A DNA stretch of 64,000 nt from Thermoanaerobacter ethanolicus JW 200 (GTDB lineage: Bacteria; Bacillota; Thermoanaerobacteria; Thermoanaerobacterales; Thermoanaerobacteraceae), in the NCBI RefSeq assembly GCF_003722315.1, contig NZ_CP033580.1, forward strand, positions 1,735,001 to 1,799,000, written 5' to 3'. Position numbers and translations under genes: made by a program. The notes below the pieces were generated by a model. It did no database searches. It was not told where the DNA came from and was given only the letters and a program-made list of their open reading frames with translations. Below, piece by piece: positions 58,407 through 64,000 of this stretch; the first letter of the stretch is position 1, and each line of letters starts with the position of its first letter.

Positions 58407-59684
58407 TTAAGCCGATTGCATCAGAGCACTAAGAGACTTAAACTCATCAAATTTACCCAGTTTAATAGCTACAATAGCGACAGTAAGCAAAGTAATATGG
58501 CCAAAAGTATTAAGGTTGCTGACAGAATTAATATTTCTAACATAAGCCTTTTCAAAATCTAGAGCTTTAAATCGAGAATTATATCTTTCTGATTCTACTC
58601 TTAGTCTATAGACAGCCTTAAAATATAGGGAGTCTCTATTAATAGAAGACCTATAATCAGAAGATATAATAGCATACTTAGTACAGCCTCTATGCTTTTT
58701 GCCATTAAAATATTTAGGATGCTTTATAGGGCAGGCAGAGTCATCTTTAGAATTACAGAACTTGCAAACAAATTTTTGCTTAATAAAACCATCAAAATAC
58801 TGCTTGCCGTCTTTGAGCATTTTAATACCTGCTTCACAAACCATATAACCATCATCAGTCAGTGGGGGACTTTTAGAATTACGCTTGTTAAGAGGAATAA
58901 AACAATGACCATGGAGAGTATCTCTAACAAAATTATAAACTCTCTTAACATCATACCCCTTATCGGCAATAAAATTAACATACTTAAGGTTAAACCACTT
59001 ATTAGTCTTTTCAAGTAAAGACAAAGCAACTTCAAAATCGGGGACATCAGCGGGAGTAGTAGTTTCAGCGATAGGTAATCCAGAGATAGCATCAACAATA
59101 ATATGATTTTTATAGCCCCAATAAAACTTATAACGTTTATTAGAAGAATCATTAGAAGCAGAATAAACGCCTAATTTACAATCCTTATCAGACTTAGGCT
59201 GATTATCTTTAGAGAATTTATTTTTAGAAAAAGACTTAGGGTTATTTAACTTAGTGTTAGCTTTAATAGGGGTAGAGTCCATGGAAATAAACTCACCAGA
59301 GATAATGCCCATATTTTTGAGGATATTGACTTGATTTTGAAAGATAGAGGTCAAATAATCATGAGAGAACTCATTAATAAAACGGCGGAAAGTCCAATAA
59401 GAAGGAAGAGGTTTAAGGATGTTAAAGCCACAAAGATGAGCAATGATAAGATTATTGCGGAGATAATCTAAAAGGTCAGAAATTGTACCGAATCTTTCAG
59501 CTTTCATAACAATAAAAGCTCTAAACATTGCATGATGAGAATAACCCTTACGGCCAGGACTAGAGGAAGGGAATTCAGGTATTGAAGACAAGTCTAGATT
59601 TTTAAACATAGAAGAATAGAAATCAATTTTAGACAGAGAAGTAAAGAGTTCAGGTATATTTAAAAGCAATTGAAGCTGGTACAT
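58407..59684 (-). CDS. DDE transposase (IS5/IS1182-like)
   Basis: A 425-residue transposase reading leftward. A DUF772-like N-terminal domain (YSHHAMFRAFIVMKAERFG) precedes the catalytic core: first Asp in SMDSTPIKAN (about D139), second in FIADKGYDVKR, Glu in RLRVESERYNSRFK. A cysteine group (CKFCNSKDDSACP) lies between the second Asp and the Glu. The gene appears intact, so the element may be active. The ribosome site GGAGGGGG on the - strand is inside an inverted repeat. The family label is approximate; the IS1182/IS1634 groups look similar. Confidence 0.87.
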   Translation of the reverse strand: MYQLQLLLNIPELFTSLSKIDFYSSMFKNLDLSSIPEFPSSSPGRKGYSHHAMFRAFIVMKAERFGTISDLLDYLRNNLIIAHLCGFNILKPLPSYWTFRRFINEFSHDYLTSIFQNQVNILKNMGIISGEFISMDSTPIKANTKLNNPKSFSKNKFSKDNQPKSDKDCKLGVYSASNDSSNKRYKFYWGYKNHIIVDAISGLPIAETTTPADVPDFEVALSLLEKTNKWFNLKYVNFIADKGYDVKRVYNFVRDTLHGHCFIPLNKRNSKSPPLTDDGYMVCEAGIKMLKDGKQYFDGFIKQKFVCKFCNSKDDSACPIKHPKYFNGKKHRGCTKYAIISSDYRSSINRDSLYFKAVYRLRVESERYNSRFKALDFEKAYVRNINSVSNLNTFGHITLLTVAIVAIKLGKFDEFKSLSALMQSA

Positions 59685-59882: not shown

Positions 59883-60338
59883 ATGATGAAAATAGCTCGA
59901 CACGCAAAAATTCTTGAAATAATCTCTGAAAAAGAAATTGAAACACAGGAAGAGTTAGCAGCTGAACTTCAAAAACAAGGTATTGATGTGACTCAAGCGA
60001 CTGTGTCAAGAGATATAAAAGAATTGAGACTGATAAAAGTTTTAACAGAGGATGGAAAAAGATATAAATACGCCCCGATGGGAAAAGTAGATAGCCATAT
60101 TACAGATAGACTAATGACTTTATTATCTGAGTCTATAGTGAGCGTGGATTATGCTGGAAATATCATAGCTATAAAAACGTTATCAGGCACAGCTCCCGCA
60201 GCAGCAGAGGCGATTGATACATTAAATTGGAAAGATATAGTTGGAACTTTAGCAGGTGACAATACCATTTTTGTTTTAGTGAGAAATGAAGAAGCTGTTC
60301 AAGAGCTATTGGAGAAATTCAGAAAGTTAGTTAAGTGA
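59883..60338 (+). CDS. argR: arginine repressor ArgR/AhrC
   Basis: A 151-residue hexameric arginine sensor. The N-terminal winged helix has [29 protein letters not shown]. The C-terminal domain has [15 protein letters not shown] and [13 protein letters not shown], which bind arginine. I choose ATG 59883 with GAGGTGA upstream over GTG 59871, which lies in the ribosome site; ATG 59886 is also possible. The IS lies directly upstream, so its native promoter may have been displaced. Confidence 0.95.
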
Positions 60339-60355
60339 TTTTTGGGGGTTTTGTT

Positions 60356-62056
60356 ATGCTTTTAGCACTTAGCATCCAAAACGTTGCACTTATTGACAAG
60401 GCAGAAATACAATTTGAAGAAGGATTCAATGTATTAACTGGAGAAACAGGAGCAGGGAAATCTATAGTTATAGACTCGGTTTTGCTGCTTTTAGGTAGTC
60501 GAGCCAGTAGAGATATAATACGTACTGGTGAAGAAAAAGCTATCGTAGAAGGAATATTTTTTGTGGATTCTAACAAGGATAAAATTGTAGAAATTTTAGA
60601 AGAAGTAGGTTTGAGCTTAGAAGAGGATGATACTTTGATAATAAATAGAGAAATTACAAGCAGTGGAAGAAGTTATTGTAGGATAAATGGCAGAATAGTG
60701 CCTCTTTCTTTTTTGAGTAAAATAGGTGCTTTCTTGGTAGATATTTTAGGTCAACATGAGCATCAGTTTCTTTTAGACAATACAAAACATCTTTCTATTT
60801 TAGATAATTTTGGTGACCAAAAGTTTAAAAGTTTAAAAGAAAAATTTAAAGAGCTGTTAGAAGAAGATAGAAAGATACAAAATGAGATTTCAAGTTTTTT
60901 TAAAGATGAAAAAGAAAAGAATGAAACAATTGATCTTTTGAAGTATCAAATTGAAGAGATTGAAAAGGCGAATTTGAGCGTAGAAGAGGAAACACAGTTG
61001 TTAGAAAAAAGAAATTTGCTTATGAATTTCGAAAAATTATTTACTGCTATGAATTCTAGTTACAAAATTTTGTACGAAGGTAGTGGGAGCTTTTCTGTTT
61101 TAGATAATTTACATGTTGTAATAAAAAATTTAGAAACAGCCTTTTCTATAGAGGAAAAGCTTAAAGGTTTAAAAGATAAGCTGGAGAATATTCTCTATGA
61201 ATTAGAGGATTGTGCTTTACAGGTACGGGATTACTTGAATGGCTTAGATTTTAACCAGCAAAGTTTAGAGGAAATAGAAATACGATTAGATCAAATAAAT
61301 TCCTTGAAAAGAAAATATGGACCTACAATACAGCATATTTTAGAATTTAAAGAAAATAAAAAAAGAGAATTAGAGAATATATTAAATTTTGAAGAAAAGC
61401 AAGAAGAATTGAAGCTTAAGCAGCAAAAGTTATGGAAAAAAATTTTAGAAGTTGGTGAAGCATTACATCTCAAAAGGAAGCAAATAGCAGATAACATAGA
61501 AAAAAATATAAATCAAATTTTAGTTGAACTTAATATGCCAAATGCTTATTTTAAAGTGAATATAGAAAAAATGGAAGAACCTACTGAAACAGGATTTGAT
61601 AAAATTGAATTTTTAATTTCTACAAATATAGGAGAGCCTTTAAAACCTTTGTCTAAAATTGCTTCTGGTGGCGAGCTTTCGAGAATTATGCTGGCATTAA
61701 AAACTATTCTCGCTTCCGCAGATGGAATTTCCACTTTGATTTTCGACGAAGTTGATACAGGAATAAGCGGGAAAACTGCCCAATTAGTAGCTGAAAAAAT
61801 GGCGTATCTTTCTAAAAAACATCAATTGATTTGTGTGACTCATTTACCTCAAATCGCTTCTATGGCAGATACACATTATCGAATCTCCAAAATTACAAAA
61901 AATGAAAGAACTTATATAAATGTGGAAAAACTTGACTATCAAGGTAAAATAAATGAATTAGCTCGTATTATGGGAGGATCACATGTTACTCAGACTACTT
62001 TAGAACATTCAAAAGAATTATTAGATATTGCATCTCAATTTAAAAGCAAAATTTAA
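60356..62056 (+). CDS. recN: DNA repair protein RecN
   Basis: SMC-like ATPase (566 aa) for double-strand break repair. Walker A GETGAGKSIV (about residues 30-39) and the arm of long coiled coils (about 150-370) are followed by the signature LSKIASGGELSRIMLALK and Walker B STLIFDEVDTGISG. The end LICVTHLPQIASMAD is conserved. ATG 60356 follows TGGGGGT; the earlier ATG overlaps argR. Order argR-recN-spoIVB-spo0A is as in Bacillus. Confidence 0.96.
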   Translation: MLLALSIQNVALIDKAEIQFEEGFNVLTGETGAGKSIVIDSVLLLLGSRASRDIIRTGEEKAIVEGIFFVDSNKDKIVEILEEVGLSLEEDDTLIINREITSSGRSYCRINGRIVPLSFLSKIGAFLVDILGQHEHQFLLDNTKHLSILDNFGDQKFKSLKEKFKELLEEDRKIQNEISSFFKDEKEKNETIDLLKYQIEEIEKANLSVEEETQLLEKRNLLMNFEKLFTAMNSSYKILYEGSGSFSVLDNLHVVIKNLETAFSIEEKLKGLKDKLENILYELEDCALQVRDYLNGLDFNQQSLEEIEIRLDQINSLKRKYGPTIQHILEFKENKKRELENILNFEEKQEELKLKQQKLWKKILEVGEALHLKRKQIADNIEKNINQILVELNMPNAYFKVNIEKMEEPTETGFDKIEFLISTNIGEPLKPLSKIASGGELSRIMLALKTILASADGISTLIFDEVDTGISGKTAQLVAEKMAYLSKKHQLICVTHLPQIASMADTHYRISKITKNERTYINVEKLDYQGKINELARIMGGSHVTQTTLEHSKELLDIASQFKSKI

Positions 62057-62069
62057 TATTTTAGTTTAA

Positions 62070-62173
62070 TCTCACTTCCTTTTACTATCGGATAATATAT
62101 TGACAGTATATAAAGCTTTAAAAAAGGTTAAGTTAATTTTAGATTAAAATAAGCTGCAAAAAAGGAAGTGAGA
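62070..62173 (+). promoter_or_regulatory. long-range inverted repeat hiding the spoIVB ribosome site, with a candidate SigF promoter in the loop
   Basis: TCTCACTTCCTTTT (62070-62083) is the perfect 14-base complement of AAAAGGAAGTGAGA (62160-62173), which is the spoIVB ribosome site. Between the arms lies GTATA (62106-62110), a 15-base spacer and GGTTAAGTTA (62126-62135), close to the Bacillus SigF pattern. RNA started there would lack the first arm. Confidence 0.6.
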
Positions 62174-62175
62174 GA

Positions 62176-63489
62176 ATGACAAAAAATACAGTAAAATTGC
62201 TACTTTTTATATCCTTAAGCTTTTTTTTAGTATTTGCAAATTATTTTACTCCTATACAAGATATAGCGAAAACTCCCTCAAGTTTTAAATTTTTTCAAGG
62301 TGAAAAAGTTAATTATAACTTTAATATACCAATAAAAGTAAGTTTTCAAGCTGATAAAAAAGGTTTTTTAAAAATTAATGAGACAGAAGATAAAAATGTT
62401 TTAAATTTGAAAGAACCTATTACTATAGAAGCGGTAAACACTGGCACAGTAAATTTGGATTTTAAGCTCTTTGGAATATTTCCTATAAAGCATATCAGTG
62501 TTGACATCGTTCCGACAATAAAAGTAGTACCGGGCGGCCAAGCGATAGGGGTCAAGTTAAATACAAAGGGAGTATTAGTAGTAGGCTATTCAGATATAAT
62601 GGGGGAGGACGGTAAAATTTATAGTCCTTATAAGCAAGGGAAAATACAGATAGGAGATATAATATTAGAAGTCAACGGCAGGGAAATAAAACAAGCAGAA
62701 GATATTACTAACATTGCAAATGAATTACGTGGGAAAGCTTTAAAATTAAAAATAAATAGAAAAAATCATATTTTTTATACTACCATTTATCCTATAAAGT
62801 CAAAAGAGGATAGACAATACAGAATAGGTCTTTGGGTGAGAGACCACACTGCTGGTATAGGTACTTTAACCTTTTATTATCCTACTAGCAAGATGTATGG
62901 AGCTTTAGGTCATGCTATAACTGATATAGATACTGGTCACATGTTATCAGTAGAAAATGGAGAGATTATGAATTCTCGAATTACTTCTATTGACCAAGGA
63001 AGAAGAAGTAAACCTGGGGAATTAAAAGGGATTTTTTTAGAAGAAGTTGATACAATAGGGAATATATTAAAAAACACTGAATTTGGAATTTACGGGAATA
63101 TGTATGAAGACTTTAAGAACGATTTGTATGGCGAGATTCCTATAGCATATCAAAGCCAAATAAAAGAAGGGCCAGCTAAAATATTGGCTACCATTGATAA
63201 TACAGGTATACAGCAATTTGATATTGAAATTATCAAAAAAGCGTATCAAGAAACTCCTAGCCCTAAAAGTATGATAATTAAAATTGTTGACAAGAATTTA
63301 TTAAAAAAGACTGGAGGCATAATACAGGGTATGAGTGGTAGTCCTATTATACAAGATGGAAAACTGGTAGGAGCAGTTACTCACGTTTTTGTGAATGACC
63401 CTACAAAAGGATATGCTGTTTATGCAGAATGGATGATTAATGAAATGAATAATCTACTTAATAATAAACAAGTCTTTACAAATAATTAA
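62176..63489 (+). CDS. spoIVB: SpoIVB serine peptidase
   Basis: Forespore-secreted S55 peptidase (437 aa) that in Bacillus cleaves SpoIVFA and so releases SpoIVFB to process pro-SigK. An N-terminal membrane/signal segment (about residues 7-24) is followed by a PDZ domain (about 110-200; GQAIGVKLNTKGVLVVGY, then GDIILEVNGREI). The catalytic part has the histidine in GALGHAITDID (about 245) and the serine in GMSGSPI (387-389). sigK is in the same window; spoIVFAB is not. Confidence 0.95.
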   Translation: MTKNTVKLLLFISLSFFLVFANYFTPIQDIAKTPSSFKFFQGEKVNYNFNIPIKVSFQADKKGFLKINETEDKNVLNLKEPITIEAVNTGTVNLDFKLFGIFPIKHISVDIVPTIKVVPGGQAIGVKLNTKGVLVVGYSDIMGEDGKIYSPYKQGKIQIGDIILEVNGREIKQAEDITNIANELRGKALKLKINRKNHIFYTTIYPIKSKEDRQYRIGLWVRDHTAGIGTLTFYYPTSKMYGALGHAITDIDTGHMLSVENGEIMNSRITSIDQGRRSKPGELKGIFLEEVDTIGNILKNTEFGIYGNMYEDFKNDLYGEIPIAYQSQIKEGPAKILATIDNTGIQQFDIEIIKKAYQETPSPKSMIIKIVDKNLLKKTGGIIQGMSGSPIIQDGKLVGAVTHVFVNDPTKGYAVYAEWMINEMNNLLNNKQVFTNN

Positions 63490-63505
63490 AATTTTTTGGG
63501 AAAAA

Positions 63506-63534
63506 GAAGGAAATTCAATTATTATGTAGAATAA
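63506..63534 (+). promoter_or_regulatory. SigH-type promoter and possible 0A box of spo0A
   Basis: GAAGGAAAT (63506-63514), an 11-base spacer, GTAGAATAA (63526-63534): both fit the Bacillus SigH consensus and spacing. TGTAGAA (63525-63531), one base from the 0A-box core TGTCGAA, overlaps the -10. Confidence 0.7.
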
Positions 63535-63572
63535 ATATTATATACTAATATTAGCAATGGGAGGTTAAATAA

Positions 63573-64000
63573 TTGGTTAAGAAGATTAGAGTAGGGATAG
63601 CAGATGATAACAAAGAATTTGCTACTATTTTAGCTGAGTATTTATCTACTCAAGAAAATATTGAAGTGGTTGGTGTTGCCAATGACGGCAACCAAGCGAT
63701 TGAACTCATTAAAAATCAACCGCCAGATTTGTTAATTTTAGATATTATAATGCCATATTTAGATGGCATTGGTGTTTTGGAAAAGATAAATGAAGAACAA
63801 TTAAAAAAGCCTAAAATTTTAGTCTTATCTGCAGTAGGCCAAGAAAAAATAACTCAACGGGCTATTGCATTAGGGGCAGATTATTATATTTTAAAACCTT
63901 TTGATTTAGCTATGTTGTCAAAAAGGATTTCTGAGCTTATGGAGCCTGAATTAGATGTAGTATCAAAGACTGTATTTCCTGTGGTAAAAGCGAAGAAAAA
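63573..64000 (+). CDS. spo0A: Spo0A, sporulation master response regulator (5' part; runs off the window)
   Basis: The first 142 residues are seen. Start TTG 63573 with GGGAGG upstream. The receiver domain is complete: acidic pair in VGIADDNKEF, phospho-acceptor D57 in LILDIIMPYLDG, conserved Ser in VLSAVG and Lys in YILKPFD. The linker (about residues 125-142) is also present; the DNA-binding effector domain lies beyond the window edge. Position after spoIVB is diagnostic for Spo0A. Confidence 0.95.
   Translation, partial: MVKKIRVGIADDNKEFATILAEYLSTQENIEVVGVANDGNQAIELIKNQPPDLLILDIIMPYLDGIGVLEKINEEQLKKPKILVLSAVGQEKITQRAIALGADYYILKPFDLAMLSKRISELMEPELDVVSKTVFPVVKAKK

Follow-up and report, generated by a model that had tools for sequence, protein, structure and literature searches.

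The window, by which we mean the whole 64,000-nucleotide stretch of Thermoanaerobacter ethanolicus DNA that was analysed, carries the genes recN, spoIVB and spo0A close to its right end (Table 1). recN and spoIVB are co-directional, no terminator was found between them, and they are neighbours in almost all of the sampled relatives. The TAA stop codon of recN (62054-62056) and the ATG start codon of spoIVB (62176) are separated by a gap of 119 bp, in which two complementary arms flank a predicted promoter. No LexA box that would tie read-through from recN to DNA damage was found near argR or the recN start. A multi-copy IS transposase gene is inserted between nadK and argR on the minus strand (58407-59684), and a long arm upstream of it covers its own ribosome site (TGTAGGATTTCCCCTCC / GGGGGAAATCCTACA). 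The spoIVB frame is broken by several stops in Thermoanaerobacter thermocopriae (G009; L026/L006) and interrupted by two TAA codons in another genome (G016; L020); sequencing error or real loss may be responsible in either case.

Table 1. Features of the recN-spoIVB region, with positions in the window
Feature	Position	Strand	Remarks
recN	60335..62056	+	TIGR00634, 572 bits; vegetative gene upstream of spoIVB, argR just before
Left arm TCTCACTTCCTTTT	62070-62083	+	Perfect complement of the spoIVB ribosome site; expected on read-through RNA only
-35 element GTATA	62106..62110	+	Invariant in the genus; pattern conserved across order and phylum
-10 element GGTTAAGTTA	62126..62135	+	Upstream GG typical of SigF-type promoters
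Predicted transcription start	62139..62142 (about 62141)	+	Conserved TTAG/ATAG; placed by spacing and conservation
Right arm AAAAGGAAGTGAGA	62160-62173	+	Shine-Dalgarno region of spoIVB; invariant in the genus
spoIVB, signalling (checkpoint) peptidase	62176..63489	+	TIGR02860, 562 bits (cut-off 305)
spo0A, control gene downstream	63573..64000	+	TTG start, runs past the window end; TIGR02875, 203 bits over 142 residues

Paired arms around the spoIVB ribosome site

The two arms form a perfect 14-bp pairing across 76 nt, and the whole ribosome site of spoIVB is covered by it. Between the recN stop and the left arm lie 13 nt, so that the arm starts with the 14th base, as stated in the initial annotation. 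When the upstream stretch was subjected to 20,000 dinucleotide shuffles, no perfect complement to the ribosome-site region exceeded 12 bases, compared with 14 in the real sequence. The same annotation had proposed that RNA reading through from recN would pair this arm with the ribosome site, and folding agreed with the proposal: in read-through RNA folded from the recN stop, the ribosome site is predicted to be buried (MFE -29.2 kcal/mol, z = -3.2). Because the host grows hot, the folding was repeated at 60-70 °C. The predicted cost of opening the ribosome site at 65 °C is 8.2-8.6 kcal/mol in the read-through RNA and 2.2-2.4 kcal/mol in the RNA started from the promoter, and the read-through hairpin is predicted to be still closed at 65-70 °C. 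The promoter-started RNA (from about 62141) lacks the left arm, yet is itself partly folded according to the prediction.

AT-rich DNA often contains short inverted repeats, and the arms could in principle have arisen by chance or mark the two ends of a small mobile element. This explanation is extremely improbable, given that the shuffles did not exceed 12 bp and that the arms are conserved in all genomes of the genus. A mobile element or repeat (MITE) was also excluded as a candidate because the region is single copy; no second copy of its 124 bp was found in the own genome.

A signal-responsive leader, namely an RNA thermometer or a riboswitch acting on all spoIVB transcripts, was considered in view of the thermophilic host and the hairpin-hidden ribosome site, which is typical of thermometers. 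We regard it as highly improbable. The hairpin is predicted to be closed even at 70 °C, and the region 61800-62500 gave no Rfam match at E<=1. In addition, the main transcript would lack the arm because the predicted promoter lies inside the loop.

A forespore-type promoter between the arms

The string GTATA-N15-GGTTAAGTTA at 62106-62135 is the sole match of its kind in the window. A looser pattern has one other match in the own genome, upstream of small tandem genes resembling SASP genes. The -10 version found in the sister genera is GGTTAATTTA. With the strict pattern GYATA-N15-GGnnAnnWTA, a match was obtained upstream of spoIVB in every usable locus of the order (23/23; shuffle expectation 0.00) and in 18 of the 78 loci drawn across the phylum (shuffle expectation 0.02). 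By comparative standards, therefore, the promoter between the arms is real. A conserved TTGACA at 62099-62104 was tried as part of a housekeeping promoter, and was rejected on the grounds that the bases 16-18 nt downstream are unlike TATAAT.

The initial annotation called this promoter SigF-like. Its position between the arms and its conservation stand, and its assignment to SigF is replaced by the broader term forespore-type, since SigF and SigG are inseparable here. In C. difficile, the SigF and SigG promoters are much alike, and those of SigF have a conserved G on the upstream side of the -10 element (PMC3789822). The spoIVB homologues have been placed under both SigF and SigG, and SpoIVB of B. 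subtilis is made under both factors (PMC3789822). The further suggestion that sporulation transcripts would be free of the blocking arm is supported by the predicted start at about 62141, which lies 3' of the left arm.

Conservation and re-making of the pairing

The left arm is present in 10/10 genomes of the genus (nine species) at a fixed spacing of 13 nt from the recN stop. It is 98% conserved within the genus, and there is little true covariation at this level because the arm is almost invariant; the outermost stem pair is lost in two genomes. Identity to Caldanaerobacter is 93% over the left arm, but only 46% in the stretch immediately preceding it and 53% in the leader. Caldanaerobacter has a single change in the left arm, which produces a G-U pair, and its stem extends outward by two further pairs.

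In two other families of the order, the arms have different sequences. Those of family f2 (AAATGCCACTCTC/GAGAGTGGTATTT) and family f3 (AAATCCCACTTTAAG/CTTAAAGTGGG) are unlike the arms of the window, and match their own ribosome sites. A G-U pair occurs in one f2 genome where its relative has A-U. The left arm of both families sits in the spacer of GTATA-N18-CATTTTA or of a one-base variant. Unrelated arms that match their own ribosome sites were also found in the phylum sample, for example at L092, L100, L102, L113, L128, L138, and L152. The initial annotation had named conservation of the pairing in relatives as a check, and the pairing was recovered throughout the genus, in re-made form in f2 and f3, and in scattered lineages of the phylum. 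The apparently independent re-making between families is the strongest support for the pairing.

The arms might instead act at the DNA level and not as RNA, by protein binding or looping, either as an inverted binding site or as an upstream element of the forespore promoter. The region from the left arm through the -35 element is conserved as one unit, and the arm of f2 and f3 is located inside the promoter spacer. However, the second copy falls precisely on the ribosome site, the two vary together from family to family, and the sister genera have the promoter without the arm; this reading is thus very unlikely. The 22 bases that separate the left arm from the -35 element are also well conserved, with 86% identity to Caldanaerobacter, so this segment may have a role as DNA upstream of the promoter. 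Conservation of the segment (62084-62105, ACTATCGGATAATATATTGACA) is strong in the genus, and for TTGACAGTATA it extends to the sister genera. ACT/AGT in the same region could lengthen the fold.

Genus g2 and the Thermoanaerobacterium-like genus g3 have kept the promoter, and the arm is absent from them. Most of their genomes have a terminator-like hairpin directly after recN, only some of which were caught by the automatic scan. In Thermoanaerobacter, no terminator was found after recN; in f3, an arm and a terminator occur together. Replacement of a terminator by the arm would fit this genus and its sisters, and fails across the phylum, where terminators were found at 8/11 loci with an arm and 19/54 loci without one. 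Terminators are, if anything, commoner with arms; therefore, the arm cannot be explained simply as a terminator replacement, and it is best seen as an additional safeguard.

The hairpin could also serve mainly to end or process the recN message, as a terminator, an RNase III site or a 3'-end stabiliser, and the hiding of the ribosome site would then be a by-product. The stem begins 13 nt past the recN stop with a spacing that is fixed in the genus, and similar stems at yunB and spoIIP of the same genome, with a U-rich stretch after them, could terminate. The spoIVB hairpin differs from these in that there is no U tract after the arm ending at 62173, and no terminator-like site was detected in 61900-63700. 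Moreover, the arm tracks the changing ribosome site between families and not a fixed stem. This explanation is unlikely, though less so than a role of the arms as a DNA element.

For the phylum sample, the arm was searched in one fixed interval (-150 to -30) upstream of spoIVB and, as controls, of spo0A and recN. Significant pairing with the ribosome site (p<=0.02) was found for spoIVB at 13 of 82 loci, for spo0A at 2 of 82 and for recN at 2 of 71 (Fisher test, spoIVB versus spo0A, p = 0.003; spoIVB versus recN, p = 0.006). Across the phylum, roughly three quarters of the loci or more have no significant arm. Wherever an arm-bearing lineage has a recognisable promoter, its arm starts 5' of the predicted transcription start, a position that is partly forced by the search interval because the leaders are short. 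Judged from this comparison, the pairing is maintained by selection: the arm has been re-made with new sequence, and the controls spo0A and recN are low. The proposed read-through lock appears to have arisen repeatedly.

A proposed read-through lock and other sporulation genes

The comparison supports the main idea of the initial annotation, and the arm is probably a read-through insulator that makes SpoIVB synthesis depend on the forespore promoter. Stray transcription from argR-recN would enter spoIVB, and the left arm of the read-through RNA would pair with the spoIVB ribosome site and block translation. The SigF/SigG-type promoter between the arms would start RNA at about 62141, past the blocking arm. 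Forespore transcripts would be translated freely because they start after this arm. The protease would thus be kept out of growing cells and the mother cell, despite the lack of a terminator separating spoIVB from recN. We infer the existence of the read-through RNA, the block of translation, the start site and the benefit to the cell.

During sporulation, some proteins have to be made in one of two cells and not the other, which is usually attributed to the choice of promoter. A lock acting on leaked RNA alone would add a second, translational layer of cell-type control, and such locks can be found from sequence alone. The initial annotation considered silence in growing cells, which is only half of the likely purpose. 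If SpoIVB is made in the mother cell, it triggers the processing of pro-SigK in that same cell (PMC4383634); therefore, vegetative read-through in the mother cell may be the greater danger, and the benefit of the lock may be greatest there.

Related arrangements are known from mobile elements and phages. In IS10-type transposase genes, the ribosome site is hidden only in RNA that enters from outside; spoIVB differs from them as a developmental chromosomal gene. In the lysozyme gene e of phage T4, the ribosome site is hidden in early read-through RNA and free in late RNA from an internal promoter. The T4 case concerns phage timing, whereas cell-type control would be at work in spoIVB. The closest case is sigG (spoIIIG) of B. 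subtilis, for which a read-through hairpin was proposed (Masuda 1988; Sun 1991), as described in PMC5942855. The spoIVB arrangement would work like the sigG hairpin, and differs from it in the gene, the upstream unit (the vegetative argR-recN) and the lineage, as well as in the re-making of the arm with new sequence between families. A literature search for the sporulation form of the mechanism found only the sigG case, and no spoIVB paper describing such a hairpin was found; both results are weak evidence, with subscription papers thinly covered. The kind of mechanism is therefore known already, as proposed for sigG and known for transposases, and the novelty lies in finding it on spoIVB and repeatedly among sporulation genes.

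A 1.26-Mb sample of the own genome was screened for such arms, covering 656 genes whose upstream space measured 60 nt or more. Multi-copy genes, mostly transposases, served as a positive control, and about a quarter of them (21/94) scored z<=-4, in line with the known shielding of transposase genes from transcription that enters from outside. Thirteen co-directional, single-copy genes reached the same threshold after removal of transposases, which were recognised by eye from their sequences, and four of the 13 are sporulation genes (spoIVB, spoVK, spoIIP, and yunB). With spoIVB left out, sporulation genes account for 3/12 of the matches, compared with 1/40 random controls (p = 0.03). Because this enrichment is only modest, spoVK, yunB and spoIIP were traced through the order. 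The bofC/cheW pair and two other high-scoring pairs were dropped, as their genes are divergent and the arm is the ribosome site of the neighbour. ytaF, with two copies and found in this genus only, was set aside.

Unlike spoIVB, the genes spoVK, yunB and spoIIP have short loops, and the arm lies in or near the promoter where one was recognised, in spoVK and yunB. The arms of spoVK (L165:8586-9494, minus strand; orthologues L213-L236) are CACATCCCAATAT/ATATTGGGATGTG in almost all f1 genomes. The spoVK loop contains a -10 element of the SigE/SigK type, that is, the mother-cell type (CATAGAAT or CATAAAAT), and the arms of f2 differ. In yunB (L188:803-1495, minus strand; orthologues L261-L284), the arm lies directly after the upstream stop codon and is kept in f1. 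The mother-cell-type -10 element CATAAAAT is in its loop, the f3 arms differ in sequence, and several stems in g3 contain a mismatch. spoIIP (L183:13304-14494, plus strand; orthologues L237-L260), which appears to follow gpr in this lineage, has an arm whose sequence changes yet still pairs in each of the order's 24 genomes. The stems of yunB and spoIIP, with the U-rich stretch after them, could double as terminators.

These cases raise the prospect of a general design in spore-forming Clostridia, to which we give an even chance. Sporulation genes located downstream of others (spoIVB, spoVK, yunB, and perhaps spoIIP, ytvI and ylbJ) would have promoters nested in ribosome-site hairpins that form only in read-through RNA, often with the blocking arm in the promoter spacer, so that cell-type control would be enforced in translation as well as in transcription. 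Strong upstream arms against the ribosome site were also observed in non-sporulation genes, namely a SorC/DeoR-type regulator (L158:17363-18319), rex (L180:5416-6087) and a lipase-like gene (L212:1623-2864).
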